A stretch of DNA of 33,883 bases from a virus. Position 1 is the first letter of the stretch, and every line of letters starts with the position of its first letter. Below the pieces are notes generated by a model. It was not told the origin of the DNA. It saw only the letters and a list, made by a program, of their open reading frames with translations, and ran no database searches. The DNA lies in the IMG/VR virus record IMGVR_UViG_3300046011_007459, positions 1-33,883 of that record. The stretch is one strand, 5' to 3'. This document shows positions 1,758-26,180 of the stretch, piece by piece. The position numbers and the translations under genes were made by a program.

Positions 1758-2001
1758 CGGGGGCGGAATCCACGAGGCCATTGCCGCCGAGCTTGGTGAC
1801 GGTGACTTTCTCGTGCAATGGGTGTACGTGGCTGACGTCATGGCACCCGACGGCACCCGGTCGATTGTGACCGAGGGCGGCGGCGGCCCCGACGGTGGGC
1901 CGGCCGCGTGGGTCGTCATGGGCCTGCTGCATGCCGGCGTTGCCATTGCCACTGACCAGCTTATGCACCCCGACGACTACGACCTAGACGAGGATGACTA
2001 G
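1732..2001 (+). CDS. Small acidic protein of unknown function
   Basis: An 89-residue protein from GTG 1732, overlapping the phosphoesterase 3' end by 26 bp; a TTG at 1750 is an alternative start. It has a central WVYVADVMAPDG segment, a Gly-rich turn, a helical AWVVMGLLHAGV segment and a very acidic C-terminus (DDYDLDEDD). The layout resembles a small family of actinophage proteins of about 80-90 residues, but I cannot assign a function. The stop overlaps the stop of the leftward XRE gene: both share the bases CTAG at 1998-2001. Confidence 0.6.
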   Translation: MNGFCGLTDGGGIHEAIAAELGDGDFLVQWVYVADVMAPDGTRSIVTEGGGGPDGGPAAWVVMGLLHAGVAIATDQLMHPDDYDLDEDD

Positions 2002-2258
2002 AGGTAGTCGATAAGCCCTAGCCACCAATCCGCGCTAATCCCGCTGGCAACCACGAGCTTGCGCAGGGCGTCGTATGACGGCAGCGACCGCCCTTGCTCC
2101 CAATTGAAAACGGTTTGCTCGGTCAGCCCCGTCATATCGCTGACCTGGCGTTGGCTAAGGCCGCGCCTATCGCGCCACTCCCGCAATCTCGTGGCAAAGA
2201 CTTGTTGAGTGCGGCCCCCTCCCCGGTCCCCGTTGTCCGGTGGAGGAATGGCGCTCAT
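1998..2258 (-). CDS. XRE-family helix-turn-helix regulator
   Basis: An 86-residue leftward protein. After a disordered Pro/Gly-rich N-terminus (residues 1-17), residues 22-80 form a Cro/C1-type HTH: LREWRDRRGLSQRQVSDMTGL is helices 1-2, TEQTVFNWEQGRSLPS is the recognition helix and turn, and YDALRKLVVASG follows. The C-terminal SADWWLGL motif is common in small phage repressors. An AAGGA lies about 10 bases before the ATG. It may be a Cro-like antagonist or a second repressor to the leftward gene at 2414-2902. It diverges from the small gene at 2350 and shares the CTAG stop overlap with the gene ending at 2001. Confidence 0.8.
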   Translation of the reverse strand: MSAIPPPDNGDRGGGRTQQVFATRLREWRDRRGLSQRQVSDMTGLTEQTVFNWEQGRSLPSYDALRKLVVASGISADWWLGLIDYL

Positions 2259-2349: not shown

Positions 2350-2550
2350 ATGGCAAACGTCACCGATAATCTCACCGACAACCAGCGTGAGGCCGTACTT
2401 GAGGTCGCACGGGCTATGTGCGTGGCCGCTGCGAGGCTGCACGCGACCGACCACGTTGCTTTGGCGCTAGGGGAATCGGCCCGCCGATATCGGGAGATTG
2501 CAACGCCCCGTCAAGAGGCTCAACCGCCGCGTCAACAAGGCGCTGGTTGA
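2350..2550 (+). CDS. Small helical protein, divergent from the XRE gene (tentative)
   Basis: A possible 66-residue protein. Residues 1-50 are helical and use codons like neighbouring genes (GAC, GAG, CTTGAG), while the last 16 residues are Pro/Gln-rich and look like an unselected tail. It overlaps the 3' end of the repressor gene at 2414-2902 by 137 bp on the other strand. There the repressor's own C-terminus also looks low-complexity, so both could be real with junk tails. The ribosome-binding site is weak. No family was recognised. An alternative is that this is only a shadow of the repressor region. Confidence 0.35.
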   Translation: MANVTDNLTDNQREAVLEVARAMCVAAARLHATDHVALALGESARRYREIATPRQEAQPPRQQGAG

Positions 2551-2902
2551 CGTCAGCGGCTTGGCCTTCGGGCTCAAGCACAATGTCGGCACCGACACGC
2601 CGGCCGAGCATTACGTCCATGCTCATGCCGAGAACATCGGCCAGGGCAACGGCGGCGTCAAGCAGCATTGAGCCCTTTTCGCGCTCAATTTGCGCGAGCC
2701 AGCTTTCCCCGTAGTCACGGTCGCACTTGGCGGCAACGGCTTGGGCAACCCGCTTTTGCGTAAGCCCGAGCTCTTTGCGCCTGGCCTTGATGCGGGCACC
2801 CGTGCCATACGGGATTCGGGACGGTGGCGGCATACCGGGGCATGGTCCCCCTTTGGCGCGTAATCCGCAACCGCACTTTCGTACAGGGGTACGCTTTCCC
2901 AC
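2414..2902 (-). CDS. XRE-family repressor, probable immunity repressor
   Basis: A 162-residue leftward protein from GTG 2902; a later ATG at about 2833 would remove a Cys-containing N-terminus (CGCGL...GGPCPG). The HTH is clear: RIKARRKELGLTQKRVAQAVA, then SWLAQIEREKGSM as the recognition helix region, then LLDAAVALADVLGMSMDVMLG, typical of Cro/C1-type regulators. No LexA-like Ser/Lys protease domain is visible, so induction would not be by RecA-stimulated self-cleavage. It lies upstream of and divergent from the early rightward operon (3016 onward), the expected place of a lysogeny repressor. The C-terminal 40 residues are low-complexity. Confidence 0.75.
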   Translation of the reverse strand: MGKRTPVRKCGCGLRAKGGPCPGMPPPSRIPYGTGARIKARRKELGLTQKRVAQAVAAKCDRDYGESWLAQIEREKGSMLLDAAVALADVLGMSMDVMLGRRVGADIVLEPEGQAADVNQRLVDAAVEPLDGALQSPDIGGPIPLAPKQRGRSRAASQRPRT

Positions 2903-8154: not shown

Positions 8155-8510
8155 TGCGCGGCATTGAGCGCCCATGTGCGGTGTGCGGTGTGCTTTTTAC
8201 ACACGGCAACCCTGCTTACAAGACGTGTGGAAGCCCGCGGTGCATGAACGCCAACCGTCGCAAGCGGTACGCCGAAAGCTCGCGCCGGCAGACTGAGCGT
8301 GCGCGTGAGGTCGCCAGGTGGACGCGGCCCACTCCCCCGCGCCCCGGCGAATTCATTGCCGACACCCACACCCGCCGCAAGATTGTGACGGCATGGGTTT
8401 CGGGCCACCGGCTTGAGGGGTGGGACCGCTTCACCCACACGGCCGTTCGGGCAGGCGTGAGCGTGGCAACGGTTATCTCGGTGCTGCGCTCAAGCGGGGC
8501 AGCGGCGTGA
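8154..8510 (+). CDS. Zinc-finger/HTH small DNA-binding protein
   Basis: A 118-residue protein whose ATG overlaps the previous stop. The N-terminus has CAVCGVLFTHGN...KTCGSPRC (about residues 8-30), a four-Cys zinc knuckle. A basic linker (RRKRYAESSRRQTERAR) follows. The C-terminal half ends in FTHTAVRAGVSVATVISVLRS, an HTH-like element. It probably binds DNA; the target is unknown. The next micro-ORF starts within its stop (TGATG). Confidence 0.6.
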   Translation: MRGIERPCAVCGVLFTHGNPAYKTCGSPRCMNANRRKRYAESSRRQTERAREVARWTRPTPPRPGEFIADTHTRRKIVTAWVSGHRLEGWDRFTHTAVRAGVSVATVISVLRSSGAAA

Positions 8511-10072: not shown

Positions 10073-10483
10073 TTGAGCGCAATACGTGACGAGGCTGCCG
10101 AGCAATTGGCACGCCTTCGGGTGCTTTGGCCGGTTCTAAATCAGCGCCCCGAGCACACACAAGAGATAGTCAAAGCGGTCATTCGGCACGAGCACAAGCT
10201 TGCCGTTGACGACGTCGTTGCCGGCTTTTCCAATGCAATTGAAAACGCGCCGACAAACGGTTGGCCGCCTGGCCCGCACGAGGTACTTGACTCAATCTTG
10301 AAGGCCGCGCAGACGCGCAAGGCCGCAGGCCACGGCACACACTCACGGCGGGATTTCGGCGGGCTCACCTTCGCAGAGTGGTGGCACACGCTTCCGGCTG
10401 ATGAGAAGCCTAAGCACGACGCCCTGTACCGGCTGATGCACCGCGAGCCCGAGGACGTCATTGAGTGGGAGGACGCCGCCTAA
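10073..10483 (+). CDS. Hypothetical replication-module protein (helicase-loader-like position)
   Basis: A 136-residue protein. TTG 10073 is favoured because an AAAGGGG lies 5 bases upstream; a GTG at 10055 lacks one. The N-terminal two thirds are helical (DEAAEQLARLRVLWPVLNQ, IVKAVIRHEHKLAVDDVVAGF), and a WPPGPHEVLDSIL segment and a GGLTFAEWWHTLP motif follow. Genes of this size after the initiator often encode helicase loaders or accessory proteins, but no AAA+ motif is present. The assignment to the replication module is by position. Confidence 0.55.
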   Translation: MSAIRDEAAEQLARLRVLWPVLNQRPEHTQEIVKAVIRHEHKLAVDDVVAGFSNAIENAPTNGWPPGPHEVLDSILKAAQTRKAAGHGTHSRRDFGGLTFAEWWHTLPADEKPKHDALYRLMHREPEDVIEWEDAA

Positions 10484-10932
10484 TGGCCAAGTCAAAGCTC
10501 ACACCGCAGCTGACAAAGCAATTTGCCGAGGCAATTTCCAAGGGCTACACCTACAACCAGGCGTGCGACCTGTTGCACATCGGGAACGCCACCTTCCACG
10601 AGTGGGTTGCCCGCGGTGAAGGCACCCACGAGCGGCCGCAGACGCAGGCGCATGCCGACTTTGCCGAGGCCGTAAAAGAGGCCAAGGCTAAGCGCGAAAA
10701 CCGCTGGCAGGGCGTCATTGAGGAAGCCGCCATTGGCGGCACTTGGCAGGCAGCGGCGTGGCTGCTTGAGCGCACGAACCGCAAGGACTTCGGCCGGCAT
10801 GAGTCGGTGGAAATGACGGGCAAGGACGGCGGCCCGGTGGAGCAGCGCATTACCGGCGACAAGCAGCGCGAGCAGGTCACCGCGCTCATTGACGAGCTCG
10901 CCGCGAGGCGGGCAGGAAAGGAAGCGGCATGA
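10483..10932 (+). CDS. terS: Terminase small subunit
   Basis: A 149-residue protein with a GGGAGGA about 10 bases upstream. The N-terminus is an HTH (LTPQLTKQFAEAISKGYTYNQACDLLHI, then NATFHEWVARGEG), followed by FAEAVKEAKAKRENRWQGVIEEAAIGGTWQAAAWLLERTNRKDFGRH, which is the oligomerisation core pattern of phage small terminases. A basic and Ala-rich C-terminus ends in KEAA. It recognises the packaging site and loads the large subunit encoded at 11772. It overlaps the next micro-ORF by ATGA. Confidence 0.85.
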   Translation: MAKSKLTPQLTKQFAEAISKGYTYNQACDLLHIGNATFHEWVARGEGTHERPQTQAHADFAEAVKEAKAKRENRWQGVIEEAAIGGTWQAAAWLLERTNRKDFGRHESVEMTGKDGGPVEQRITGDKQREQVTALIDELAARRAGKEAA

Positions 10933-11536: not shown

Positions 11537-11775
11537 TGGGCACCATTCCGATTGACACCCCGCCCGAGCCGCCGCTTGTCGCGCTTGGCATCGCGCTTCG
11601 GCAGGCGTTCCAAAGCGGGAGTGACGAGCGCATGCTTGACGTGCTGCTTGACCAGGGGCTTGCGGGCAAGGTGGCCGCGGCGCTCAACGAGGGCAACGAC
11701 CGCACGCTTACCTTTGCCGCGCCCTACATCGCTGACCTTGCGGTGCGCTTGGGGAGGATTGAGCAGCAGCGGTGA
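11536..11775 (+). CDS. Hypothetical small protein upstream of terL
   Basis: A 79-residue protein, start overlapping the ssb stop and stop overlapping the terL GTG (GTGA). After a Pro-rich N-terminus it is helical (LVALGIALRQAFQSGSDERML, LLDQGLAGKVAAALNEG, YIADLAVRLGRIEQQR). The position between ssb and terL would suit a packaging or replication accessory, but no family was recognised. Confidence 0.6.
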   Translation: MGTIPIDTPPEPPLVALGIALRQAFQSGSDERMLDVLLDQGLAGKVAAALNEGNDRTLTFAAPYIADLAVRLGRIEQQR

Positions 11776-13016
11776 CCGTCACCGAGGCACAAGCTCTTGC
11801 GGCCGTAGAGCGCCGGCCATGGCTTGGCTGGCGACGCCGTGAGCAAATGCCGCCCGCGGGCGATTGGCGTACCTGGCTCATTCTCGCCGGCCGTGGGTGG
11901 GGCAAGACACGCACCGGGGCCGAGTGGGTCATTGACCGCATTGAGGACGGGCACGAGCGCATTGCGCTGATTGGACCGACCGCCGCCGACGTGCGTGACG
12001 TCATGGTTGAAGGTGAGTCAGGCATTTTGGCCGTGTGCCCTGCCGACCTTGACGCCAATTACGAGCCGTCAAAGCGCCGCGTCACCTTCTCCACGGGCGC
12101 GATATGCACCACGTATTCGGCTGATGAACCCGACCGCTTGCGTGGGCCGCAGCATGACGCCGCATGGGCTGACGAGCTTGCGGCATGGCGCTACCCCGAG
12201 GCGTGGGACCAGCTGCAATTCGGGCTTCGCCTTGGCGACGACCCGCGCACAATCGTCACCACGACGCCACGCCCCACCAAGGAAATACGCGAGCTCGTGG
12301 GCTCGGCCACCACCGTGGTCACCCGTGGGTCGACATTTGACAACGCCGACAACCTCGCACCCGCGTTCCTTGAGCGCATCCTTGCCAAGTACGAAGGCAC
12401 ACGCCTTGGCCGGCAGGAGCTTTACGCCGAGATACTTGACGACGTGCCAGGTGCGCTTTGGTCACGCGCCATGCTTGAGCACGCCGTTACCGCCTGCCCC
12501 TGCCCTGTCCCCGACACCGAGCGGCTTGTTGTCGCCATTGACCCCGCGGTGACCTCGGGCGAGGATTCGGACTCAACGGGCATTGTCGTCGCGGGCAGGT
12601 TTGACAAGTCAGCGGTGGTGCTTGCCGACCTTACGTGCCGGCTGTCACCGGACGGGTGGGCCAAGCGGGCGGTTGAGGCGTACCACGAGTATCAGGCCGA
12701 CCGGATTGTGGCCGAGGCCAACCAGGGCGGCGACCTCGTCAAGACCGTGCTTCGCACCGTCGACCCCACCGTTCCGGTCAAGCTCGTGCATGCGACGAGG
12801 GGCAAGCGCGTGCGTGCCGAGCCCGTGGCGGCGCTGTATGAACAGCTGCGCGTGTTTCACACGGCGGTATTTCCCGAGCTTGAGGACGAGCTTGTGACGT
12901 GGACGCCCGATAGCCCGCACTCCCCCGACCGCCTTGACGCGCTTGTGTGGGCGCTCACCGACCTTGACCTAAGCCGGCCGGCGCGGGTGCGCGGGATTAC
13001 TGCGCCGAGGTTTTGA
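11772..13016 (+). CDS. terL: Terminase large subunit
   Basis: A 414-residue protein from GTG 11772. The packaging ATPase has Walker A AGRGWGKT (residues 39-46) and Walker B AAWADE (130-135, catalytic Glu135), and a TTTPRP coupling motif (about 163-168). The RNase-H-like nuclease begins with VVAIDPAVTSG (Asp257) and SDSTGIVV, has VAEANQGGD, and ends with SPDRLDALVWAL, giving the acidic triad. It pumps DNA into the prohead and cuts it. The length is standard for the compact type. The 3' end overlaps the leftward gene 12997-13281 by 20 bp. Confidence 0.95.
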   Translation: MTVTEAQALAAVERRPWLGWRRREQMPPAGDWRTWLILAGRGWGKTRTGAEWVIDRIEDGHERIALIGPTAADVRDVMVEGESGILAVCPADLDANYEPSKRRVTFSTGAICTTYSADEPDRLRGPQHDAAWADELAAWRYPEAWDQLQFGLRLGDDPRTIVTTTPRPTKEIRELVGSATTVVTRGSTFDNADNLAPAFLERILAKYEGTRLGRQELYAEILDDVPGALWSRAMLEHAVTACPCPVPDTERLVVAIDPAVTSGEDSDSTGIVVAGRFDKSAVVLADLTCRLSPDGWAKRAVEAYHEYQADRIVAEANQGGDLVKTVLRTVDPTVPVKLVHATRGKRVRAEPVAALYEQLRVFHTAVFPELEDELVTWTPDSPHSPDRLDALVWALTDLDLSRPARVRGITAPRF

Positions 13017-13520: not shown

Positions 13521-13786
13521 GCGCCCACCCCCTCAACACCCTGCCAGTACGCGCCGAGCTCGTCGCCGGGGCTCATGCCGTAGGACGTCAGCACCACCCA
13601 ACAGTCGTCGACGTCGCCGCCGTGGTTGATGACCTCAAGGACGATGAGCCGCCCCTTGTAGGCGTAGTCGTAGCGGCCCGTAGCCTCAAAGCCCTCGGGC
13701 AGCCACTTGCAAAGGTGAGCAAGCGCCTTGTCGGGCGTCTTGGTCATCATGGAAACGGTGAAGGTGTGGGTGGCGGCGGTGCTCAT
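13517..13786 (-). CDS. Leftward cassette A, gene 1: hypothetical
   Basis: An 89-residue protein; the ATG at 13786 was chosen over an upstream start because an AAAGGGGA lies 6 bases upstream. It has a TPDKALAHLCKWLPEGFEA helix, a YDYAYKGRLIVLEVINHGG strand pair and a WVVLTSYGMSPGDELGAYW tail. No family was recognised. It is the first gene after the strong leftward promoter-operator at 13815-13862. Confidence 0.7.
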   Translation of the reverse strand: MSTAATHTFTVSMMTKTPDKALAHLCKWLPEGFEATGRYDYAYKGRLIVLEVINHGGDVDDCWVVLTSYGMSPGDELGAYWQGVEGVGA

Positions 13787-13814
13787 TGCAAGTCCCCTTT
13801 CGGGTGGTTGGTTG

Positions 13815-13862
13815 GTAAAGCGCACTTTACGCTACCCACCACCAATGTCAAGCACGCTTGAC
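13815..13862 (-). promoter_or_regulatory. Leftward promoter with palindromic operators, cassette A
   Basis: On the minus strand a perfect TTGACA -35 box (13851-13846) is 16 bp from a TAAAGT -10 box (13829-13824). The -10 lies inside the palindrome GTAAAGCGCACTTTAC (plus-strand 13815-13830). A second perfect inverted repeat, GTCAAGC-AC-GCTTGAC (13847-13862), overlaps the -35. The same -10 palindrome with one change is found at 18277-18292 before the other leftward cassette. The rest of the 269-bp gap to the portal start holds no clear gene; it is GC-rich with a CCCTCGGGGG and CCCGAGGGGG inverted element near 13900-13950. Confidence 0.75.
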
Positions 13863-14055
13863 CAACCTTTACAATTGGCCTGGCGCGGGATTCGCCGGCC
13901 CCCTCGGGGGTATCGGGTGGCACGTCCAACCACACCGCACCGCGCCCGAGGGGGCCACCGCGGGGGGAATCCCTGCCCGCCACGGTGCGAGTACTCTACC
14001 GCATCGCAATGTGCCGGTGCGCTTTCCCCCGTAGCGAGGTCTAAAGTCCTACCTC

Positions 14056-15393
14056 GTGGATATTTCCGCCTACCTCGCGGCGACTATCGACGCCGACCGC
14101 GAGCGCCACCGTCGTATTCACCGCGCTTGGGAGCTCTACCGGGGCAACATGCCCAAGCCCCTGCGCGTGTTGCCAGGCGAGCCCGACGACAACATTCGGC
14201 TGAACATGGCCGGCCTTGTGGTTGACACAGGCGTTGACGCGCTCTTTGGGCAGGACATTCGCGTGCAGGTCGAAACCGACGACACCGTTGACGAGCTTGC
14301 CACGGCGTACTTGTACGACGTGTTTGAAGTCAACCGGGAAATGCTGCTTTGGCAGGCGGCCGCCACTAACGGCGCAGTCGCCGGCCACGCGGCCATTCGC
14401 ATTGTGCCCGCCCCCGAGGGCTCACCCGTCGGTACCCCTCCCCGCCTGCTTGTCGTTGACCCCGAAATGCTGCGCGTGGTGTGGGAACCCGATGACGTCG
14501 GCACCGTCCTTGCCTACGTCCTGCAATGGCTTGCGATGGACGACCGCGGCAAGGAAGTCGCCAAGCGCCAGGTGATACAGCGCGACGGCAGCCAATGGAT
14601 GATTGTCGATCAAATATCGGCCGACACACAGGGCACTCGTTGGACGACGCTTAAGGAAACGCCCTGGCGCTTCGGGTGGGCACCGATTGTCGATTGCCAA
14701 AACCTCCCCGAGCCCAACGCCTACTTCGGCCGTCCGGATATCACCGACGACGTGCTTGAGACACAGCTTGCGCTCAACCGCGTCATGAGCAACGCGGCCC
14801 GTGTGCAGCGAATCCACGGCCACCCCAAGGTCGTTGCCAAGGGCGTGGGTGACGGCGACCTTGACGTTGGGCCAGACGAAGCCATTGTGCTGCCCGACAC
14901 TGACAGTGAGATTTCGCTGCTTGAGCCGCGGGCAACGGTCGCTGACCACATTCAGCTTTTCAACACCGTGAAGGCGGCCCTTCACGAGATTTCCCGCGTG
15001 CCCGAGATTACGGCCGGGAACCTTGAGGGCATCGGCAACCTTTCGGGGCTTGCGCTCAAGATTCTCTATGGCCCGCTTGTGCGAAAGACCGAGGTAAAGC
15101 GCCGGCTGTACGGCAGCCTCATCACCGAGCTTTCCTCACGGGTGTGTGAGCTCGGCGGGCTTGGGCCCGGCCTGTACTGCGAAGTGAAGTGGCCCGAGAT
15201 AATCCCGAGCGACCCGCTCATTGAGGCGACCGCCGCCGAGGCGTTGCAGCGTGCCGGCGTGAGTCAGTCGACCACGCTTGCCGAAATGGGCTACGACCCC
15301 ATGAGCGAGTCCGAGCAGCGGGCGACCGAGCAGACTGACCTTGGCTCGGCGCTTCTCACCGCGTTTGACCGGGGGGCCGGCGCGACCGGCTGA
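14056..15393 (+). CDS. Portal protein (SPP1 gp6-like)
   Basis: A 445-residue protein from GTG 14056; the ribosome-binding site is weak. Features of SPP1-type portals are seen: an N-terminal helical ERHRRIHRAWELYRGNMP, a NMAGLVVDTGVDALFG clip/wing region, LLVVDPEMLRVVWEPDDVG, a central VDCQNLPEPNAYFGRPDI, the NRVMSNAARVQRI helix, and the crown/stem LKILYGPLVRKTEVKRRLYG. It forms the ring through which DNA enters and leaves the head. It is followed by the MuF gene, the canonical order. It lies downstream of leftward cassette A. Confidence 0.9.
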   Translation: MDISAYLAATIDADRERHRRIHRAWELYRGNMPKPLRVLPGEPDDNIRLNMAGLVVDTGVDALFGQDIRVQVETDDTVDELATAYLYDVFEVNREMLLWQAAATNGAVAGHAAIRIVPAPEGSPVGTPPRLLVVDPEMLRVVWEPDDVGTVLAYVLQWLAMDDRGKEVAKRQVIQRDGSQWMIVDQISADTQGTRWTTLKETPWRFGWAPIVDCQNLPEPNAYFGRPDITDDVLETQLALNRVMSNAARVQRIHGHPKVVAKGVGDGDLDVGPDEAIVLPDTDSEISLLEPRATVADHIQLFNTVKAALHEISRVPEITAGNLEGIGNLSGLALKILYGPLVRKTEVKRRLYGSLITELSSRVCELGGLGPGLYCEVKWPEIIPSDPLIEATAAEALQRAGVSQSTTLAEMGYDPMSESEQRATEQTDLGSALLTAFDRGAGATG

Positions 15394-15404
15394 CCTAGCG
15401 GCCG

Positions 15405-17240
15405 GTGGCAAATCTCTACGACCAGGCGCAGGAATTTCGCGCCGCCCTTTTGCGCGACGAGCGCCGCGCCGCCCGTCAAATGTTCGACGTCTACGGCGCA
15501 GCCTTTCGCCGCATCGTGCGTGAGCGGGAAAGCGTCCTTGCTGCAATCGCGCAAAGCCGCAATGCAGGCGTCCCCGACACCGACATTCCCGCGCTGCTCT
15601 ACCGCGAAGGCCGCTTGCAAGTGCTCCAAAGCAAGGTGGTCACCGAGCTCACCCGCTTTGCCGAGCAGGCTGACGTCATTGTGGGCGGTGCCATTGACCT
15701 TGCGCGTGTGGCCGGCGACGAGCACGCCGCCGCGCTCATGCAGCTGGCATTGCCTGAAGGCATCACCGTTGCCCCATCGGGGGACGTCGACCCCGCCACG
15801 GGTGCGCCGCGCATCACGCCCGTGGTGCCCGAGGAAGTGGGCCTAGCCCGCGGCGCAGCGCAGCAAATCGGTGCGTTCACCCAAACCAACGCGCCCGTGG
15901 GTCAGCTATTCGCGCAATTCGGACCCGAGGCCGCCAAGACCTTGACCGATGCGATTACCTCGGGCGTGATCGCCGGCAAGAACCCGCGTGTCATTGCCCG
16001 CGACATGCGCCAGGCGCTTGGCGGCAGCCTCACCCGTGCGCTCACCATCGCCCGCACCGAAACCTTGCGTGCCTACCGCGAGGCGTCCCGCGCCGCCTAC
16101 CAAGCCAACGCCGATGTGCTGCAAGGGTGGGTGTGGACCGCTGACCTAAGCAACCGCACTTGCCCGTCATGTTGGGCGCAACATGGGTCGGTGCATCCTC
16201 TTGACGAGGTCATGGCAACGCACCCGCGCTGCCGGTGCTCAATGGTCCCCAAAACGAAGTCGTGGCGTGAGCTCGGGTTTGGTGAGCAGCCGGGCGGGCT
16301 TGACATTGAGCCGGGGCCGGCCGCCTTCCGCAAGCTTCCCGAAGCCGACCAACGCCGCATACTCGGGCCGTCGAAATACGACGCCTACAAGCGCCGGGAA
16401 ATCACGCTGCCCGACCTCGTTGCCAAGCGCGAGTCACCGACGTGGGGGCCGTCGACGGGTGAGGCAAGCCTTCGGGTTGCCAAGGACAACGCGGCGCTTC
16501 GCAAGGCCGGTGGGGGCACGCCGCCGCCTGCGTTGCCCGACGTTGTGCTTCCCCCGCCGCCGCCAAGCCCGGTCGTCAACCAGCTTGCCGAGGGATTGCT
16601 TTCACCGGCCGACACCGTTGACCTATTTACCGCCACCCGTGGCGTCAAGAAAGAAACCCTTGACGACATTAAGCGTGCACTTGACGCCATTGGCGAGGTC
16701 GTCCGAGTGCCACCAGGCCAGGCGGCTGACCGCATTTCGGTCAAGTACGTGGGACGCGCCAATTACGCGGGGCAGTACGGCGCACGAGTCAACATCCTCA
16801 CCCGCGAAGTATTTGACAGCGAGCTTCGCATGGCTGGCAATTTTGACGGGCGTGCCGGCACGTTTGTGCACGAGTACGGGCATTACCTTGATATGGAAAT
16901 GATGGGCGATGCAACCCGCGGGATTGACGAGGCAAGCGAGCTTTGGGAGTGGTGGCAGGTTGTCAAGGGCTCACGCAATTACGGTGAGATTCGGGCGTCA
17001 TCTACCCTTGGCGCTCGGCGCAAGGCGTACTTCCTCGGGGCCGACGAGTGCTTTGCCAGGTCGTTTGCGCAGTACATCGCACGAAAGAGCGGGTCGGGGG
17101 AAATCCTTGACGATGTATTCAGCGCGTGGCAGGGAACCGAGCGCCGGCACGGCTTCGTGCCACAATGGGACGAAGCAGACTTTGCGCCAATTGAGGCGGC
17201 GCTTGACGCTCTATTCCGCAAGCGGGGGTGGCTTCGCTGA
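15405..17240 (+). CDS. MuF head-morphogenesis protein fused to a zincin metallopeptidase domain
   Basis: A 611-residue protein from GTG 15405. Residues 1-200 are helical. Residues 205-282 are the MuF domain: TIARTETLRAYREASRAAYQ, then CPSCWAQHG (Cys253, Cys256), HPLD and THPRCRCSMVP (His273, Cys276, Cys278). A Pro-rich linker (about 370-390, with PPPPPSP) leads to a separate C-terminal domain. There HEYGHYLD (His489, Glu490, His493) is a HExxH zinc-binding motif, and DECFARSFAQYIAR (547-560) supplies a likely third ligand and the ExFARxF signature of zincins of mobile elements. MuF proteins enter the prohead; C-terminal toxin fusions are known in temperate phages. The cargo here would be a protease delivered with DNA or acting in assembly. 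Confidence 0.85.
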   Translation: MANLYDQAQEFRAALLRDERRAARQMFDVYGAAFRRIVRERESVLAAIAQSRNAGVPDTDIPALLYREGRLQVLQSKVVTELTRFAEQADVIVGGAIDLARVAGDEHAAALMQLALPEGITVAPSGDVDPATGAPRITPVVPEEVGLARGAAQQIGAFTQTNAPVGQLFAQFGPEAAKTLTDAITSGVIAGKNPRVIARDMRQALGGSLTRALTIARTETLRAYREASRAAYQANADVLQGWVWTADLSNRTCPSCWAQHGSVHPLDEVMATHPRCRCSMVPKTKSWRELGFGEQPGGLDIEPGPAAFRKLPEADQRRILGPSKYDAYKRREITLPDLVAKRESPTWGPSTGEASLRVAKDNAALRKAGGGTPPPALPDVVLPPPPPSPVVNQLAEGLLSPADTVDLFTATRGVKKETLDDIKRALDAIGEVVRVPPGQAADRISVKYVGRANYAGQYGARVNILTREVFDSELRMAGNFDGRAGTFVHEYGHYLDMEMMGDATRGIDEASELWEWWQVVKGSRNYGEIRASSTLGARRKAYFLGADECFARSFAQYIARKSGSGEILDDVFSAWQGTERRHGFVPQWDEADFAPIEAALDALFRKRGWLR

Positions 17241-17377
17241 TGGGCACCGATAGGCTCGGCCCCGGTGACTTCGACGTGCGCGACGAGAACGGCAACCCGC
17301 GGCCGTTGCTTTCCGCTGACCGCCTGCAGCCCGACGTGCTTGAGCAATTGCTAGCCGAGGCCAGCGCCGAGGACTAG
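17240..17377 (+). CDS. 45-residue acidic protein after MuF
   Basis: A 45-residue ORF whose ATG uses the last base of the MuF stop. It is acidic (MGTDRLGPGDFDVRDENGN, then a VLEQLLAEASAED helix). Its place right after a MuF-toxin-like gene is where an immunity or chaperone gene could be, but it is too short to judge. Its TAG and that of the leftward gene 17374-17604 share CTAG. Confidence 0.5.
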   Translation: MGTDRLGPGDFDVRDENGNPRPLLSADRLQPDVLEQLLAEASAED

Positions 17378-17604
17378 CTGCGCTCGGCTGCCGGTGCACG
17401 GTGGCCCGCGATGATTTGCCCGACGCGCTGCTTGGTGAGGCCGGCCGCGTCACCGATTGCCTCAAGTGTCTCCCCCGCTTCGCGTGCAGCCATGACCGCA
17501 TCCACAAGCGCGGCGTCAGCGTCATGCTTGCGCTCGGCGGCGCGTGCCTTGGTCGCCGCAGCGCGGGCAACCAGGTCAAGGTGGGCGGTGTGTGTGTTGG
17601 TCAT
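17374..17604 (-). CDS. Leftward cassette B, gene 4: HTH protein
   Basis: A 76-residue protein. Residues 30-68 look like a sigma-70 region 4-type or ParB-like HTH: ALVDAVMAAREAGETLEAIGDAAGLTKQRVGQIIAG, with a recognition helix LTKQRVGQII. The N-terminal part is a basic helix. It could regulate the cassette's own operator, or the paired cassette. It is coupled to the gene upstream by a 4-bp overlap. Confidence 0.7.
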   Translation of the reverse strand: MTNTHTAHLDLVARAAATKARAAERKHDADAALVDAVMAAREAGETLEAIGDAAGLTKQRVGQIIAGHRAPAAERS

Positions 17605-17753
17605 GCGGCGTCCTTGCGGTTGGCGTCAGTAAGCATGCGTTCCTCCCACGGCTCGGGTAGTGCGGGCGTGTCCCCCATGCGCCACCCGCAGCGCGGGCAT
17701 CCGGCACCCGCGTCGGGCGCATCGCAGCATGGGCATGTGCGGTCGTCGGTCAT
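17601..17753 (-). CDS. Leftward cassette B, gene 3: zinc-ribbon protein
   Basis: A 50-residue protein; the ATG at 17753 is chosen because it overlaps the upstream gene by 4 bp. It has CPCCDAP and CPRCGW knuckles (about residues 8-25), a compact zinc ribbon, and an acidic Pro-rich tail. It is similar in style to the zinc-ribbon genes at 5330 and 11015. The function is unknown. Confidence 0.65.
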   Translation of the reverse strand: MTDDRTCPCCDAPDAGAGCPRCGWRMGDTPALPEPWEERMLTDANRKDAA

Positions 17754-17944
17754 GCGCTGTCCTCGTGGGTGTGCTGCTTGGGCGGTGAGGCGAGCTCCAT
17801 CATGTGCGCGGCGACGGCATAGCGCAACATCCACACGGGCTTGGGCTGGCCACGCACATGCTCAAGGTTGCATGCGTGCATCAGCCTGAGCACACCGTAT
17901 GCCTCAATGCGCACCTCGTCGGCTTTTGCATAGTCGTCGGTCAT
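17750..17944 (-). CDS. Leftward cassette B, gene 2: hypothetical
   Basis: A 64-residue protein, helical (ADEVRIEAYGVLRLMHACNL, then VWMLRYAVAAHMMELA) with a His/Asp-rich C-terminus. It overlaps both neighbours by 4 bp. No family was recognised. Confidence 0.65.
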   Translation of the reverse strand: MTDDYAKADEVRIEAYGVLRLMHACNLEHVRGQPKPVWMLRYAVAAHMMELASPPKQHTHEDSA

Positions 17945-18249
17945 GCGGCTTCGCGCATCTTGGCGCGGTAGTCGCTGGCCTGCTGCCAGCTGTACCCCTG
18001 CGCCGCCATGCGCTTTAGCGTGGCGCGCGCCGAGCTAACAAGCCCGCCGCAGCCGTTGGCAATGAATTCGCCGGCCATTTCCCCGGCGTAGTGGTCGGCT
18101 CGGCTGTGAAGCTCAAAGGCGTCGGCTTCGCTAAGTGTCACGATGACTTCGCGCTTGGTGCGCTTGAGCTCAACGGGGCTGTCGTCGAAGCAATACGAAT
18201 GGCGCGTGTCGTCGTAGAACGTGGGCGAAAGCTTAAACGTGTAGGTCAT
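17941..18249 (-). CDS. Leftward cassette B, gene 1: hypothetical
   Basis: A 102-residue protein with an AAAAGGAA just upstream of the ATG. It starts with a strand-rich part (TYTFKLSPTFYDDTRHSYCF), has REVIVTLSEADAFELHSRADHYAGEM, and ends with a helical AAQGYSWQQASDYRAKMREA. No family was recognised. It is the first gene after the promoter-operator at 18277-18314. Confidence 0.7.
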   Translation of the reverse strand: MTYTFKLSPTFYDDTRHSYCFDDSPVELKRTKREVIVTLSEADAFELHSRADHYAGEMAGEFIANGCGGLVSSARATLKRMAAQGYSWQQASDYRAKMREAA

Positions 18250-18276
18250 TGGGATTCCTTTTGCTTTGTTGACCTT

Positions 18277-18314
18277 GTAAAGCGCAGTTTACTACATCGC
18301 TCACCGTGTGTCAA
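18277..18314 (-). promoter_or_regulatory. Leftward promoter with palindromic operator, cassette B
   Basis: On the minus strand a perfect TTGACA -35 (18314-18309) is 17 bp from TAAACT (18291-18286). The -10 sits in the near-palindrome GTAAAGCGCAGTTTAC (18277-18292), which differs by one base from the one at 13815-13830. The palindrome is 28 bp from the start codon at 18249; in cassette A it is 29 bp. The rest of the gap to 18414 shows nothing clear. Confidence 0.75.
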
Positions 18315-18413
18315 GTTCCGTTTACCATGCCGGCCAAAGAATACGCCGGTTTCCCCCGCGCCGCGTGATTGCATACCGCTGCAAGGTTCACCGCATCGGG
18401 GGTTACCGCTAAC

Positions 18414-19058
18414 ATGACCGACGAAACGGTTGACGAGGGCCAGGCGCCCGACGTCACCGAGCCCATGACGGGCAATGATGTGGCGCAGGACGCCACCCCG
18501 CAGGCGCAGGACGCCGCAGGGACCGAGGACCGGGCTTTCTCCGACAAGGCGCTTAAGGAAGCGCGGGCGGAAGCTGCCAAGTACCGCAAGCGCCTTCGGG
18601 AGCTTGAGGCGGTGCAGCAGCGACGCGAGGAAGCCGAGCTTACCGAGTCCGAAAGGCAGGCCAAGCGTTTGGCCGAGCTTGAGCAGGCAGTTTTGGAGCG
18701 CGACGAGCAGACCCGTCGGCTGGCGCTTGAAAGCGCCGTCGCCATGCGCAGCAACGCGCTTGGCATTGTCGACGCCGAGGTTGCCGTAAAGCTCTTGGAC
18801 CCCGGCTCGCTTGACTTTGACGAGGCCGGCCGGCCCGACTCGGAAAGCCTTGACCAGGCACTTAGGTCGCTTATCAAGTCCAAGCCGTACCTCAAGACTC
18901 AGCCCCCCGCAGCTAGTCCTGCCAATCCGGCCCGAGCCGAGCCGTTGGGTGAAACCGACGAGCAGCGGCGTTCGCGTCTTTTTGGCGGCGGCGGCGGAAT
19001 GTTTGACCCGAGCACGGCAAGCAGGCTTGGCGGCGGCGTAATTAACCCACAGGAGTAA
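18414..19058 (+). CDS. Capsid scaffolding protein
   Basis: A 214-residue protein with ATG 18414. It has an acidic disordered N-terminus, a long charged coiled coil (about 40-120: ALKEARAEAAKYRKRLREL ... ERQAKRLAELEQAVLERDEQ), an IVDAEVAVKLLDPGSLDFDE segment and a Gly-rich basic tail ending FDPSTASRLGGGVINPQE. This is the typical scaffold layout and it lies immediately before the major capsid gene. It organises capsid subunits in the prohead and is then removed; the MuF metallopeptidase could be a protease involved, but no evidence shows that. Confidence 0.87.
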   Translation: MTDETVDEGQAPDVTEPMTGNDVAQDATPQAQDAAGTEDRAFSDKALKEARAEAAKYRKRLRELEAVQQRREEAELTESERQAKRLAELEQAVLERDEQTRRLALESAVAMRSNALGIVDAEVAVKLLDPGSLDFDEAGRPDSESLDQALRSLIKSKPYLKTQPPAASPANPARAEPLGETDEQRRSRLFGGGGGMFDPSTASRLGGGVINPQE

Positions 19059-20404: not shown

Positions 20405-21598
20405 ATGGGGGCGTGCGTGAGGATTTTGTGGCACTCCAATGCGCCGTGGGCCAGCACCGGCTACGGCGTGCAGACTCAGCTTTTTGCGCCGCGCCTGCGC
20501 GACCTCGGGCACGAGGTTGCCATTTCGGCGTTCTACGGCCTTGAGGGCGGAAGCATTGAGTGGGCCGGCATGCCGGTCTACCCCAAGTGCTTTCACCCCT
20601 ACGGGCTTGACGTCATCGCCAACCACGCCGATGACCACAAGGCCGACATTGTCATCACCCTTGTTGATGCGTGGGTGCTTGATGACCAGGCGATTACCAA
20701 GAGCGGTGCCAAGTGGGTGCCCTGGTTCCCGGTCGACCATGACCCGATTCCCGACCCGGTCATTGCCAAGGTGCGCAAGGCGTGGCAGCCGCTTACCTAC
20801 TCCAAGCATGCGCAAAAGCTTGCCGAGGACGCCGGGCTTGGCGCGATGTACGTGCCCCATGGGGTCGACACCACGACCTATGCCCCCCGCGACAAGGGCA
20901 AGGCCAAGCAGGCGTTTGGCATTGACCCCGACACCTTTGTGGTGGGGATTGTGGCGGCCAACAAGGGCACGCCCTCGCGCAAGGCGCTGCCCACGCAATT
21001 TGAGGCGTTTGCCCGCTTCCACGAGAAGCACCCCAATTCGGTGCTTTACCTGCACTCGCACACCGGCCCCCAAATGGAAGGGTTAGACCTCGTTTCGGTG
21101 CTGCACAAGGTCGGCGTTCCCGAGTCGGCCGTAAAGGTGTGCAACGAGTACATGAACCTCATGGGGTACGACCCCATGCTTATGGCCGCGCTCTACAACG
21201 CAATGGACGTGCTTTGTAGCGCGACCATGGGTGAGGGCTTTGGCGTCCCCATCATTGAGGCGCAGGCGTGCGGCACCCCCGTGATTGTGACCGGGGCGAC
21301 CGCCATGCCCGAGCTTGTAGGCGGCGGGTGGGTCGTTGACGACTTTGAGCGCGTGTTTACGCCCATGAACGCCTATCAGTACATGCCGAGCGTGGCCGGC
21401 GTCACCGACGCCCTTGAGAAGGCGTACCAGGCACGCGGCGACAAGAACATTGCCCTTGCCTGCCGCGCCATGGCCGAGCCGTACGACGCCGACGCCGTCA
21501 CCGCAAAGTATTGGAAGCCCGCCCTTGAGGTGATGCACGCTCGGCTTTTTGCCGACAAGAGTGACGACGCGCCGGCCGTGGAGGTCATCGCGGCGTGA
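20405..21598 (+). CDS. GT4-type glycosyltransferase
   Basis: A 397-residue protein; ATG 20405, with GTG 20420 as an alternative. It is a GT-B fold, GT4-like: the N-terminal acceptor domain has an RILWHSNAPWASTGYGVQT loop, and the C-terminal donor domain has VGIVAANKGTPSRKALPTQFEAFARF and the EX7E motif Glu277...Glu285 in GEGFGVPIIEAQACGTPVIV. It transfers a sugar from an activated donor to an unknown acceptor. It overlaps the GT2 gene by GTGA, so the three sugar genes form one unit. Its site between capsid and connector genes suggests glycosylation of the virion. Confidence 0.85.
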   Translation: MGACVRILWHSNAPWASTGYGVQTQLFAPRLRDLGHEVAISAFYGLEGGSIEWAGMPVYPKCFHPYGLDVIANHADDHKADIVITLVDAWVLDDQAITKSGAKWVPWFPVDHDPIPDPVIAKVRKAWQPLTYSKHAQKLAEDAGLGAMYVPHGVDTTTYAPRDKGKAKQAFGIDPDTFVVGIVAANKGTPSRKALPTQFEAFARFHEKHPNSVLYLHSHTGPQMEGLDLVSVLHKVGVPESAVKVCNEYMNLMGYDPMLMAALYNAMDVLCSATMGEGFGVPIIEAQACGTPVIVTGATAMPELVGGGWVVDDFERVFTPMNAYQYMPSVAGVTDALEKAYQARGDKNIALACRAMAEPYDADAVTAKYWKPALEVMHARLFADKSDDAPAVEVIAA

Positions 21599-22209
21599 CG
21601 GTGTCGGTTGTCATTCCCACTATCAAGGGGCGCGAAGGGCTTTGCGACCGCACGGTTGCGGCCTTCCGCGCATCGACTGACGCCGATTTGCAGCTAATCG
21701 TTGTGCGCGAGCGCATGACCATCGGCAAGGCGTGGAATGACGGTGCTGAGGCCGCCACGGGTGACTACCTCATGCTTGCCGCTGATGACGTGATGCCGCA
21801 CCCCGGTTGGCTTGAGGCCGCAACCGAGGCCGCTGACGCCGGCTACTACCCCGCCCCGCGCATCGACACCGATGACGGCCAGGTGCTTGCGACCGGCTCA
21901 ATGGGCGGCGGCTGGTTGCTGACCGGCTGCGCCGATTACGCGCCGGTTGCCTCGTCGCAATTCCCGTTCATGCGCAGCTACGTGTGGCGCGAGCTCGGGC
22001 CGAGCCTTGAAATTCATTACTTCGCTGACGACTACCTTGCCGCCCGGGCTCGTGCGCTTGGGCTTACGGTGGTGTACCGCGAGGGCTACCGGCTCACCCA
22101 CCTTGAGGGCACCCACGGCCGTGACGAAATGGTGCGACGGTCCATGACCGACCGCTTGGCCTTTGAACAGTCAATGACGACCGGCGAGTGGGCAAAGGTG
22201 GCCGCATGA
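21595..22209 (+). CDS. GT2-type glycosyltransferase
   Basis: A 204-residue GT-A fold protein, shorter than many. VSVVIPTIKGREGLCDRT is the nucleotide-binding N-terminal strand and loop, AADDV (Asp64, Asp65) is the DxD metal-binding motif, and a GWLEAATEAADAGYYPAPRI and an IHYFADDYLAARARALGL segment follow. It is GTGA-coupled to the GT4 gene and ATGA-coupled to the epimerase. Without a TM segment it is a soluble enzyme, consistent with protein glycosylation in the cytoplasm. Confidence 0.82.
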   Translation: MTVSVVIPTIKGREGLCDRTVAAFRASTDADLQLIVVRERMTIGKAWNDGAEAATGDYLMLAADDVMPHPGWLEAATEAADAGYYPAPRIDTDDGQVLATGSMGGGWLLTGCADYAPVASSQFPFMRSYVWRELGPSLEIHYFADDYLAARARALGLTVVYREGYRLTHLEGTHGRDEMVRRSMTDRLAFEQSMTTGEWAKVAA

Positions 22210-23174
22210 GCCCGCGGGTGCTGATTACCGGCGCGGCGGGGTTCATGGGCAGCCACCTTGCCGACCGCTACGCATCGCTTGGGTGGGACGTGGTCGCGCT
22301 GGACAACCTCACCGGCCATGTGGTGTCGGTCACCCATCCGAGCTTTCACACCTTTCTTGTGGGCGACGCCCGTGCCCTTGAGGCCAAGCATGTGGCAAGC
22401 GTGGATTTGGTCATTCACGCGGCAAGCCCGGTGGGTGCGGCGGGCATCCTGCCCATGCAGGGCACCGTTGCCGGCCAAATCGTTTCCGCCGCGCAGCGTG
22501 TGGCCGATGCGTGCGTGATTGCCGGTGTGCCGGTGGTGCATATCTCCACGAGTGAGGTCTACGGCATCACGGGCCGCGCAAGCGAGGTTGACCCCTGCAC
22601 CGTGCCTGCCCGCTACTCGGCCCGGCTTGAGTACCAGGCGGGAAAGATTGCCGCCGAGCAGGTCTTTGGCGCGTCGATTGCCCGCGGCCTTCGCGCCGTG
22701 CAAATCCGCCCGTGGAACATGGCCGGCCCGCGTGAGGCGCGTGAGAAGGGGTTTGTCATGCCGCGCATGGTCAGCCAGGCGCTTGCCGGCGAGCCAATCA
22801 CCGTCTTTGAGGGCGGCAGCCAGGAACGCGCATTTACCTCGGTATGGGACGTGTGCCGGTTCATCACCGACTACCTGCCCGAGGACTTTGACGAGTGGCG
22901 CGGGCAGCCCTACAACGTGGGTGCCGAGCACAACCGCACCACTATCAACCAGCTTGCCGCGCTCGTGCGCGAGGTCACCGAATCAGACTCGCCCATTGTC
23001 CACACCTCGGGCAAGCGCGTCTTTGGCGAGCGATATGAGGAAGCCTCAGCCGGCACCAAGCTTCCCGATTCCGGCCGCGCCCGCGACCTTGGTTGGACCC
23101 CCGAGGACGACCTCACCGCAATCGTCGCCCGCACCGCTGCTGAACACCTTGCCCCCGAGGAAGTGGCCGCATGA
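22206..23174 (+). CDS. NAD-dependent NDP-sugar epimerase/dehydratase (extended SDR)
   Basis: A 322-residue protein. The Rossmann motif ITGAAGFMGS (Gly9, Gly12, Gly15) binds NAD. The catalytic residues are ISTSEVYG (Ser114-Ser116 region) and Tyr143-Gln-Ala-Gly-Lys147 (YxxxK). It resembles UDP-glucose 4-epimerase, GDP-mannose dehydratase and UDP-glucuronate decarboxylase; the substrate is not deducible. RPWNMAGPR and PYNVGAEHN are typical of the extended family. It would prepare the donor sugar for the two upstream glycosyltransferases. It overlaps the connector gene by ATGA. Confidence 0.87.
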   Translation: MSPRVLITGAAGFMGSHLADRYASLGWDVVALDNLTGHVVSVTHPSFHTFLVGDARALEAKHVASVDLVIHAASPVGAAGILPMQGTVAGQIVSAAQRVADACVIAGVPVVHISTSEVYGITGRASEVDPCTVPARYSARLEYQAGKIAAEQVFGASIARGLRAVQIRPWNMAGPREAREKGFVMPRMVSQALAGEPITVFEGGSQERAFTSVWDVCRFITDYLPEDFDEWRGQPYNVGAEHNRTTINQLAALVREVTESDSPIVHTSGKRVFGERYEEASAGTKLPDSGRARDLGWTPEDDLTAIVARTAAEHLAPEEVAA

Positions 23175-25769: not shown

Positions 25770-26180
25770 GTGCCGACGTTTTTTCATGGTAAGGACGCCG
25801 CCGTTTACGTCACTGACAGTGGCGGGAGCGAGCGCAACCTCACCGAGTACGCCACTTCGGTGGGCCTTCCGGTTGAGGTGGAAACCGCCGAGGTGTCCAC
25901 GCTTGGCGACGACGACAAGGTGTACGTCACCGGCCTGCGCGACCGCACCATTTCCATTGAAGGCAAGTGGGACGCCACCGTTGACGGCTACCTGTCGGGG
26001 CTGCTTGGCGGCACCGCTCGCGGGTGGAAGGTGTTTCCGGCTGGCTCGGCTGCCGGCCGCCCGTTTTACTCGGGCTCGGCCATTCTCACCAGCTACGAGG
26101 TGACGGCCGAGATTGGTGACGCGGTCATGTGGTCGGCCGAGTGGCAGAACAGCGGTGCCGTGACCAGGGGCACCGTGTAA
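25770..26180 (+). CDS. Tail tube protein B, paralogue without extra domain
   Basis: A 136-residue protein from GTG 25770, AGGAGA upstream. It is collinear with residues 1-130 of the preceding protein: FFHGKDAAVYVTDSG, VEVETAEVSTLGDDDKVYVTGL, GKWDATVDG, VFPAGSAAG, ILTSYEVTAEIGDAVMWSAEW. Same fold and same motifs, but the sequences have diverged and there is no C-terminal domain. The two could form a mixed tube or one could be a specialised end piece. Confidence 0.8.
   Translation: MPTFFHGKDAAVYVTDSGGSERNLTEYATSVGLPVEVETAEVSTLGDDDKVYVTGLRDRTISIEGKWDATVDGYLSGLLGGTARGWKVFPAGSAAGRPFYSGSAILTSYEVTAEIGDAVMWSAEWQNSGAVTRGTV

Follow-up and report, generated by a model that had tools for sequence, protein, structure and literature searches.

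Why do two groups of small genes run backwards through the late head operon of this phage, and what controls them? In the window (W), by which we mean the whole analysed stretch of DNA of 33,883 nt, cassette A (13786-12997) and cassette B (18249-17374) are encoded leftward inside rightward late head genes (Table 1). The gaps that hold them are called slot A (terL-portal) and slot B (MuF-scaffold). The sequence-only reading had noticed one promoter-operator design at both cassettes, and this core observation was confirmed and turned out stronger than first stated. On balance, we favour the view that the cassettes are early-type units that point backwards among the late head genes and are switched off by a single HTH repressor.

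Two leftward cassettes and their borders

Both cassettes run into opposing stop codons at their ends, where a moron would have a terminator of its own. A3 and terL share 20 bp at their 3' ends, and the stop codon of B4 overlaps a convergent rightward stop by 4 bp. In a simple terminator scan of 10-22 kb, the sole minus-strand terminator-like site was weak and lay inside terL, and terminator-like sites were fewer than in shuffles of the region. The downstream border of slot B is probably a scaffold gene, judging by its position ahead of the capsid gene, and a scaffolding protein is annotated at the matching place in Typher and Benry. At the upstream border, the C-terminus of MuF contains an HEYGH stretch, which we take to be a metallopeptidase-like region.

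Few of the cassette proteins could be characterised. A1 had no Pfam family and matched in PHROGs merely a family of unknown function (E 0.16), and its structure model was poor (pLDDT 57) and left out of the analysis. B3 is zinc-ribbon-like, judged by eye.

Table 1. Positions of the cassette genes, their neighbours, the putative promoter and operator-like elements and the candidate regulators in the window.
Feature	Position	Strand	Basis or remark
A1, cassette A gene 1, 89 aa	13517..13786	-	ORF list
A2, cassette A gene 2, 80 aa	13278..13520	-	ORF list
A3, cassette A gene 3, 94 aa	12997..13281	-	ORF list
B1, cassette B gene 1, 102 aa	17941..18249	-	ORF list
B2, cassette B gene 2, 64 aa	17750..17944	-	homologue in L094
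B3, cassette B gene 3, 50 aa	17601..17753	-	Cys-rich, two CxxC pairs; least certain ORF
B4, cassette B gene 4, 76 aa, HTH	17374..17604	-	PHROG 686 profile match
terL, terminase large subunit; slot A upstream border	11772..13016	+	Pfam Terminase_6N/6C
Portal protein, SPP1 gp6-like; between both slots	14056..15393	+	Pfam SPP1_portal
MuF minor head protein; slot B upstream border	15405..17240	+	Pfam Phage_Mu_F
Scaffold-like gene (putative); slot B downstream border	18414..19058	+	conserved in relatives
Putative -35 TTGACA, cassette A	13846..13851	-	perfect hexamer
Putative -10 TAAAGT, cassette A	13824..13829	-	16-bp spacer
Putative -35 TTGACA, cassette B	18309..18314	-	perfect hexamer
Putative -10 TAAACT, cassette B	18286..18291	-	17-bp spacer
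Operator-like 16-bp palindrome over -10 of A, GTAAAGCGCACTTTAC	13815-13830		
Operator-like 16-bp palindrome over -10 of B, GTAAAGCGCAGTTTAC	18277-18292		
Second operator-like palindrome over -35 of A, GTCAAGCACGCTTGAC	13847-13862		7-bp perfect arms
Second operator-like site over -35 of B, GTCAAGTTCCGTTTAC	18310-18325		
XRE-type repressor candidate, rival regulator	2414..2902	-	HTH_31/HTH_3 over cut-off
Second XRE-type regulator	1998..2258	-	HTH_3 2.1e-13

Paired operator-like sites at the cassette promoters

A perfect TTGACA and a -10 within near-identical 16-bp palindromes had been described before each cassette, and both were located as described; in each, the -10 overlaps the left arm of its palindrome. 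The distance from the palindrome to the start codon, given as 28-29 bp, holds for A (28 bp) and not for B (27 bp). When TTGACA-N15..19-TANNNT was searched on either strand of the window, it turned out that the two sites found are the two putative cassette promoters; like a moron, each cassette thus appears to have its own promoter, TTGACA plus -10.

The window has 1,425 pairs of 16-bp palindromes (5-bp arms), and of these the -10 palindromes of A and B are the most alike (15/16 bp identical); the runner-up pair (14/16) is rich in GC and falls within two genes that point rightward. Allowing up to three mismatches, the -10 palindromes occur at two places in the window (4 strand matches), compared with a mean of 0.31 and a largest value of 3 in 100 shuffles. 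The sequence-only reading had counted one palindrome per promoter; these exist, but a second copy over each -35 had been overlooked. The joint pattern GT[AC]AA-N6-TT[GT]AC, which was defined post hoc, has four occurrences in the window, all at the -10 and -35 of A and B (200 shuffles: mean 0.04, maximum 1). A matrix derived from the -10 palindromes alone, which makes for a less post-hoc test, ranks the -35 sites 3 and 4 of 33,868, with scores of 15.0 and 13.9 against 13.6 for the next position; this margin is narrow, and the scores of the -35 sites are inflated, since half of each falls on the TTGACA hexamer. When the matrix was derived from the two sites of A, those of B came third and fourth of 33,868 positions, after A's own. 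None of the rightward genes of the window has the operator; in this the window differs from the Microbacterium phages described below.

The promoters, the paired sites and their exclusivity are read from the DNA sequence, so they are best taken as predicted elements. Given the paired sites and the matrix ranks, one regulator for both cassettes, as had been suggested, is the simplest reading, and the confinement of the paired sites to the two promoters supports a common promoter-operator design.

Leftward cassettes and promoter elements in other phages

In L094, a related phage contig, slots A and B are both filled by leftward cassettes, with three units altogether. Their three promoters, whose -10s are weak by eye, have in common another palindrome, GTCYA-N6-TRGAC, which occurs 3 times in 14 kb of L094, only at the three leftward units, and at most once in 300 shuffles; in a held-out test the sites rank 3, 1 and 3 of 13,986. 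Its slot-B cassette encodes a homologue of B2 (67% over 58 aa). Besides, its slot-A protein resembles Eleri gp30 (31.8% over 47% of the query, E 5e-12), which is encoded in a leftward block with RecA and DNA polymerase.

The content of the slots varies among relatives. For example, among nine phages including the window, the terL-portal gap holds leftward genes in two (W and L094) and a rightward glycosyltransferase gene in two (L006 and L007), and is too short for a cassette in five (L003, L004, L005, L085 and L110). As with morons, the genes on either side of slot A are direct neighbours in relatives, and the earlier impression that the cassettes do not look like head genes is supported. Two further contigs, G001 and G002, whose ends overlap, have a leftward cassette with its HTH gene in slot B; searches with PF00589 and PF00239 returned nothing for them, and the single HTH_3 match is the HTH gene of the cassette itself. 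Near the slot-B start we also found the palindromes CTTGCCAACAYGAGCAAG in L003-L005 and CTTGTTGCCACAAG in L006 (less complete in L007), which were not counted as operators because one palindrome per ~130 bp is expected by chance. Between L003 and L005, five cassette genes have dN/dS of 0.08-0.24, pointing to purifying selection, and the values are higher in more distant pairs (0.30-0.64).

Homologues of the cassette genes of the window are scarce. In tblastn against 50,697 phage records, which covered every cassette protein of the window except B3, A1, B1 and B4 had no relatives at E 0.01 and A2, A3 and B2 none at E 0.05; the first slot-B gene of L003 had no match at E 0.001. In IMG/VR, B1 was found only in a contig identical to the window, and B2 additionally in L094; B1 also has a weak 30% match in L035. 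The IMG/VR pattern scan gave nothing for A1, though L036, fetched by a terL scan, encodes a homologue as a lone leftward gene (10394-10675, minus strand; 46.7% identity in the tblastn segment and 54% in pairwise alignment). No prophage of this kind was seen in the genome contigs scanned with portal and capsid alignments. In a strict-pattern scan of IMG/VR, the window -10 element was found only in the contig 100% identical to the window. Missing conservation of the palindromes in relatives, named beforehand as an outcome against a common design, is thus literally the case, but the design recurs with other site sequences.

A third common promoter element precedes the leftward units (15 of 15) of six isolated Microbacterium phages, which were analysed out of 17 records matching the Goodman region. 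All six have a leftward cassette in slot B and no annotated integrase or repressor, and Goodman's cluster is called lytic by its source paper. The promoter regex, which was composed after the promoters were seen and had 0 matches in 100 shuffles of Benry, also finds one rightward replication-region site per phage. In five of the six, the core of the element lies 36-37 bp upstream of an annotated HTH gene (gp32 and equivalents) of the replication region. An early regulon would have its promoter element in common with early genes of the same phage: in the six Microbacterium phages the element also precedes replication-region genes, which are presumably early, and the element of the window was found at the two cassettes alone. 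The last slot-B gene of Goodman, gp6, does not qualify as a homologue of B4 (16% identity and no hit in PHROGs), and the HTH gene of this phage is located elsewhere and belongs to a different PHROG from B4. At the sequence level, the arrangement recurs in two further phage groups, each having its own site sequence, and in one of them replication-region genes share the element.

Regulation and role of the cassettes

B4 matches PHROG 686 (E 8e-11, residues 7-68 of 76), by which it is predicted to be an HTH DNA-binding protein; its HTH_3 match (0.0035) is below the Pfam cut-off. The AF2 model (pLDDT 78) has helices at 47-54 and 58-69, and Foldseek found nothing better than E 2.1 with it. A profile search of PDB sequences gave the repeat protein 8vd6 (2.3e-5) and WhiG (4.6e-5), both via the HTH. 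It turned out that a B4-type HTH gene is contained in the slot-B cassette of all eight contigs with a readable distal end, being the last gene in W, L003-L007 and L086 and the last but one in L094. B4 is the most likely candidate for the repressor of both cassettes. The XRE proteins were rejected as operator readers, because neither has a site at its own or divergent promoter; the best operator scores upstream rank 47th for the larger gene and 393rd for the second.

We propose that the two cassettes are early-type transcription units, placed backwards in two fixed gaps. Host RNA polymerase would start each of them from a strong sigma-70-type promoter, by which the small proteins would be made soon after DNA entry. 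A dimeric HTH repressor would then bind two 16-bp operators per promoter, over the -35 and over the -10, and shut both cassettes off together; with B4, the last gene of cassette B, as the repressor, this would give a self-limiting pulse. The shut-off would matter because the cassettes point head-on into terL and MuF and no convincing intrinsic terminator was found, so that leftward transcription should stop before late transcription. We infer the timing from gene content, and we likewise infer that the cassettes are repressed, which protein does so and why they would be shut off.

The cassettes had been suggested to be prophage-expressed accessory or defence modules, that is, lysogenic morons transcribed in the silent prophage under an XRE immunity repressor. 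The window phage, with its integrase and two XRE genes, looks temperate, the variable content is located in the cassettes, and the available text of PMC7067206 describes an antisense leftward locus with its own promoter as characteristic of prophage accessory loci. However, both XRE promoter regions are without the operator, the Microbacterium element is common to replication-region genes, and slot B also holds a cassette in G001, in G002 and in phages of a cluster said to be lytic. A search for resemblance to known defence proteins was negative too, as none of 10 cassette proteins (six from the window, all but B3) had a PADLOC hit at E 0.1. Since there is no such hit and the cassettes occur where no integrase or XRE was detected or annotated, the evidence does not support a role in lysogeny or defence, and we regard such a role as rather unlikely in general; for the window phage, its integrase and two XRE genes mean that the cassettes may have a lysogenic role.

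It is improbable that cassette B is an immunity operon against a toxin-like C-terminal domain of MuF, with its own promoter protecting lysogens and cassette A under the same control. Slot B does begin directly after MuF or one small ORF later, and the C-terminal regions are, judging by motifs, presumably metallopeptidase-like in W, L003 and L005 and ADP-ribosyltransferase-like in L006-L007. A VIP2-like toxin is named under the match in 7 of the 17 Microbacterium records and reported for Goodman and Johann in their source paper, and a small ORF follows 89.4% of 191 MuF toxin genes in the available text of PMC5576092. However, cassette and toxin domain do not go together, and L094, Benry and L092 contradict the idea: L094 has the slot-B cassette with a MuF of 361 aa without a toxin-like domain, Benry has a cassette and a MuF of 420 aa, and L092 has a long MuF and no leftward cassette. 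Moreover, cassette A does not adjoin MuF, and a rightward small ORF directly follows MuF in W and L003-L005. We also give little credence to a host transcription factor that reads the operator and ties the cassettes to the host state, or to a promoter class without a dedicated repressor. In favour of these readings, the site sequence varies between phage groups, whose hosts may differ; the Microbacterium inverted repeat, TTGAC-N5-GTCA, includes the -35, so that this element might simply define a class of promoters that has no repressor. Against this, the window sites have 16-bp dyad symmetry with two copies per promoter, and an HTH gene stands under the common element in both cases, as B4 in the window and as gp32 and its equivalents in the Microbacterium phages.

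Going further with early-type units under one HTH repressor, we suggest tentatively that in actinophages of the SPP1-like head type the two fixed head-operon gaps may serve as landing places for early cassettes that point backwards, each marked by the operator of the phage in question. Some lineages would carry the repressor in one cassette, and convergent early transcription would block terL and MuF until it accumulates. Small genes in structural operons usually get dismissed as morons or assigned to lysogeny; here three phage groups tag such genes with a group-specific common promoter element, which in one group also precedes replication-region genes. This might offer a sequence rule for spotting early host-takeover genes hidden within head operons, and a head-on switch between early and late transcription becomes testable in laboratory phages of Microbacterium foliorum.

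Among known systems, SPP1 has comparable intervals, gp2-gp6 and gp7-gp11, which we take to be terL-portal and MuF-scaffold. In the module list of PMC6316719, these hold the moron ORFs 3-5 and 8-10, so the intervals are like slots A and B; ORFs 3-5 are dispensable and the function of ORFs 8-10 is unestablished. The available text mentions neither a common operator nor a reversed orientation for them, and the 8-10 segment also holds a replication origin. The stoperators of cluster A are similar in that one phage regulator has several short-site copies per genome, but according to the part of PMC9283540 consulted they are 13-bp, asymmetric, read by a monomer and spread genome-wide, whereas the window sites are symmetric, paired 16-mers at two promoters. 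Repeated intergenic motifs of Microbacterium clusters EC, EG and EI are likewise short motifs upstream of genes. In the available text of PMC7302621, an 18-bp motif occurs 12 times in EC, four of these copies falling among the genes that separate terminase from portal, and EG has 18-bp inverted repeats. The EC motif differs from the window sites in being asymmetric, with 7 of 12 copies among non-structural genes; in that text none of these motifs is presented as a promoter that leftward cassettes share, and no such motif is given for cluster EJ. The source paper of Goodman notes four leftward genes, and its main text contains neither the word "promoter" nor the word "operator". Goodman and Johann (cluster EJ) and relatives such as Benry have another promoter element and other gene families than the window, but they are alike in carrying small leftward genes in the MuF-scaffold gap; those of Goodman meet MuF with the same 4-bp stop overlap, and Benry has a leftward gene also between terL and portal, like slot A.

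Promoters and operator-like sites of the leftward cassettes

The two leftward cassettes of the rightward head operon, A in the terL-portal gap (slot A) and B in the MuF-scaffold gap (slot B), each have a promoter made of TTGACA, a spacer of 16 or 17 bp, and TAAAGT or TAAACT, and TTGACA-N15..19-TANNNT occurs nowhere else in the window. The 16-bp palindromes over the two -10s, from which the sequence-only reading had proposed a single regulator, are identical at 15/16 positions. A second operator-like site lies over each -35, 32 or 33 bp from the -10 site (centre to centre), and is partly the TTGACA hexamer itself. The joint pattern GT[AC]AA-N6-TT[GT]AC has four occurrences in the window, two per cassette promoter; it was post hoc, so matrix-training tests were added. 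When trained on nothing but the two -10 sites, a matrix gave the -35 sites ranks 3 and 4 among 33,868 positions, only narrowly ahead of rank 5. Training on cassette A's two sites placed those of cassette B 3rd and 4th, and training on cassette B's sites placed those of cassette A 1st and 4th. The closest contig is 100% identical to the window over 13,651 bp and therefore gives no evolutionary evidence for the operator.

No operator-like site was found upstream of either XRE gene (candidate immunity regulators); other palindromes noted by eye in the XRE regions may be immunity operators. Since the phage sequence (33,883 bp, GC 64%) carries a direct terminal repeat of 126 bp, it is probably the complete genome. 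Among its products are a tyrosine integrase, two XRE regulators, an SPP1-like portal and a MuF protein. Nearly all genes run rightward; those that do not are the XRE pair and the genes of the two cassettes (in a gene call that lacks B3). Besides, the 123-bp direct repeat is probably a gene duplication.

Features with coordinates in the window and related phages
Record	Position	Feature
Window	13786-12997	Cassette A (A1-A3), leftward
Window	18249-17374	Cassette B (B1-B4), leftward
Window	13897-13962	Strong GC-rich inverted repeat (GGCCCCCTCGGG...CCCGAGGGGGCC), between cassette A promoter and portal gene
Window	2834-2902 and 2345-2365	Palindromes by eye in XRE gene regions (CGTACCCCTGTACG, TTGCCATGGCAA)
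Window	25151-25273 and 25875-25997	123-bp direct repeat, 72% identity, in two adjoining genes
Window	20405-23174	Glycosyltransferase-like and epimerase-like genes (by eye) within head-tail operon; RfaG glycosyltransferase annotated at matching place in Mae-JY09
Window	15405-17240	MuF gene; its C-terminus is swapped between relatives and absent in L094
L006	11223-12062	Slot A: rightward TET-associated glycosyltransferase (Pfam TAGT, E 2e-33)
L007	8056-8886	Slot A: rightward gene, homologous by eye to that of L006
L036	10394-10675	A1 homologue: lone leftward gene in unrelated neighbourhood, adjoining rightward gene ParB-like by eye
Goodman (L153)	8264-8279	CGACACGCGCGTGTCG, a perfect 16-bp palindrome a short way upstream of slot-B promoter; the genome contains only one other of this kind
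Goodman (L153)	22971	Core match 37 bp before HTH gene gp32 (23008)

Leftward genes in the same slots of other phages

Close relatives were collected by IMG/VR scans with terL, capsid and portal. A leftward cassette occupies the MuF-scaffold gap in 10 of the 14 contigs read (the window, L003, L004, L005, L006, L007, L086, L087, L094 and L138; the cassette's distal end is missing from L087, and L138 shows just one cassette gene) and is absent from it in L085, L091, L092 and L093. Independent cases number fewer than 14, since several contigs form close pairs: L006/L086 and L007/L087 have identical DNA upstream of the cassette, and G001 and G002 (contigs of L004 and L005) are 91-96% alike. Most of the more distant contigs (L100-L106, L140-L143, L145-L149) have rightward genes in this gap, the exceptions being L140 and L141, where a single leftward gene was called between MuF and capsid. 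The terL-portal gap holds leftward genes in the window and L094 and a rightward gene in L006 and L007, pointing to DNA base modification in these relatives given its TAGT likeness; L003, L004, L005, L085 and L110 have no room for a cassette. To judge from low dN/dS, the leftward frames are real genes (0.08-0.24 for five cassette genes between L003 and L005; 0.30-0.64 in four comparisons of more distant pairs).

In L094, a contig of 14 kb, both slots are filled by leftward cassettes; these have three promoters, whose -10s are weak. GTCYA-N6-TRGAC occurs three times there, once per promoter, and at most once in 300 shuffles, though with one arm mismatch allowed other 15/16 palindrome pairs appear elsewhere in the contig. 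In leave-one-out tests the other two sites placed the held-out site at rank 3, 1 and 3 of 13,986, well clear of the next non-site position. These palindromes differ from the window's in sequence but are alike in geometry: each is 16 bp long, ends in GT....AC and overlies its promoter. GC-rich repeats were noted by eye adjoining the slot-A units. The slot-A protein (322 aa) has matches in 197 phage records, 164 of them Microbacterium phages; for example, Eleri gp30 (31.8% over 47% of the query) lies within a leftward block holding RecA and DNA polymerase, and Ottawa gp27 in a rightward block with nucleotide-metabolism genes.

We examined six of 17 matching Microbacterium phage records: Goodman, PermaG, Typher, Rasovi and TurboVicky (Goodmanvirus per the records) and Benry (not placed). 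In no case is an integrase or repressor annotated. All six carry leftward genes exactly in slot B, and Benry (MuF of 420 aa) has an additional one in slot A, together making 15 leftward units. TTGACA-N3..5-GTCA-N4..8-TG[AG]TTNA[AC][AT], written post hoc from promoters already seen, matches 15/15 units and one further site per genome, which points rightward next to the helicase gene at about 23-25 kb; 100 shuffles of Benry gave no match. A matrix trained on Benry's four units placed 10 of the 11 units of the other five phages within the top five of their own genome, the miss being Rasovi slot B, which the regular expression matches; it also ranks rightward sites highly. Upstream of the annotated HTH gene, a core match lies at a distance of 37 bp in PermaG, Typher and Rasovi as in Goodman, and of 36 bp in Benry, while TurboVicky has it 13 bp from the annotated start; the few others are near 31.4-31.8 kb and near 35 kb. 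In these phages, then, the leftward head-operon units share their promoter class with the replication region, which is presumed early. In L153-L159 (Microbacterium phage records), several promoters of this class have the -10 only about 6-9 bases before ATG, so their transcripts may be leaderless.

Candidate regulator and proposed shut-off

We favour B4, the HTH protein ending cassette B, as a candidate self-limiting repressor, because its gene is the only HTH gene under the shared operator in the window and its type is the only HTH_3 match in G001, G002 and fragment L003. This type occurs in all eight slot-B cassettes with a readable distal end, last in the window, L003-L007 and L086, and last but one in L094. 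In the Microbacterium phages the HTH gene that lies under the shared element is gp32 or its equivalent; B4 belongs to PHROG 686 and the gp32 type to PHROG 5414, so the parallel is one of arrangement only.

Cassette B ends in a 4-bp overlap with the opposing stop codon, cassette A in a 20-bp overlap with terL, and a simple scan found no convincing intrinsic terminator after the cassettes. From the map, leftward transcripts would continue into terL and MuF as antisense RNA, which would be a reason for shut-off; alternatively, the transcripts may end by factor-dependent termination.

Comparison with known systems

By motif, the MuF C-terminus is metallopeptidase-like (HExxH) in the window, L003 and L005, and ADP-ribosyltransferase-like in L006, L007 and L092. 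In the literature searched, mostly outside subscription journals, no account was found of reversed cassettes in a head operon that have a promoter-operator in common. MuF fused to toxin domains is known (PMC5576092), and in SPP1 the two intervals that hold the window cassettes are likewise occupied by moron ORFs (PMC6316719).
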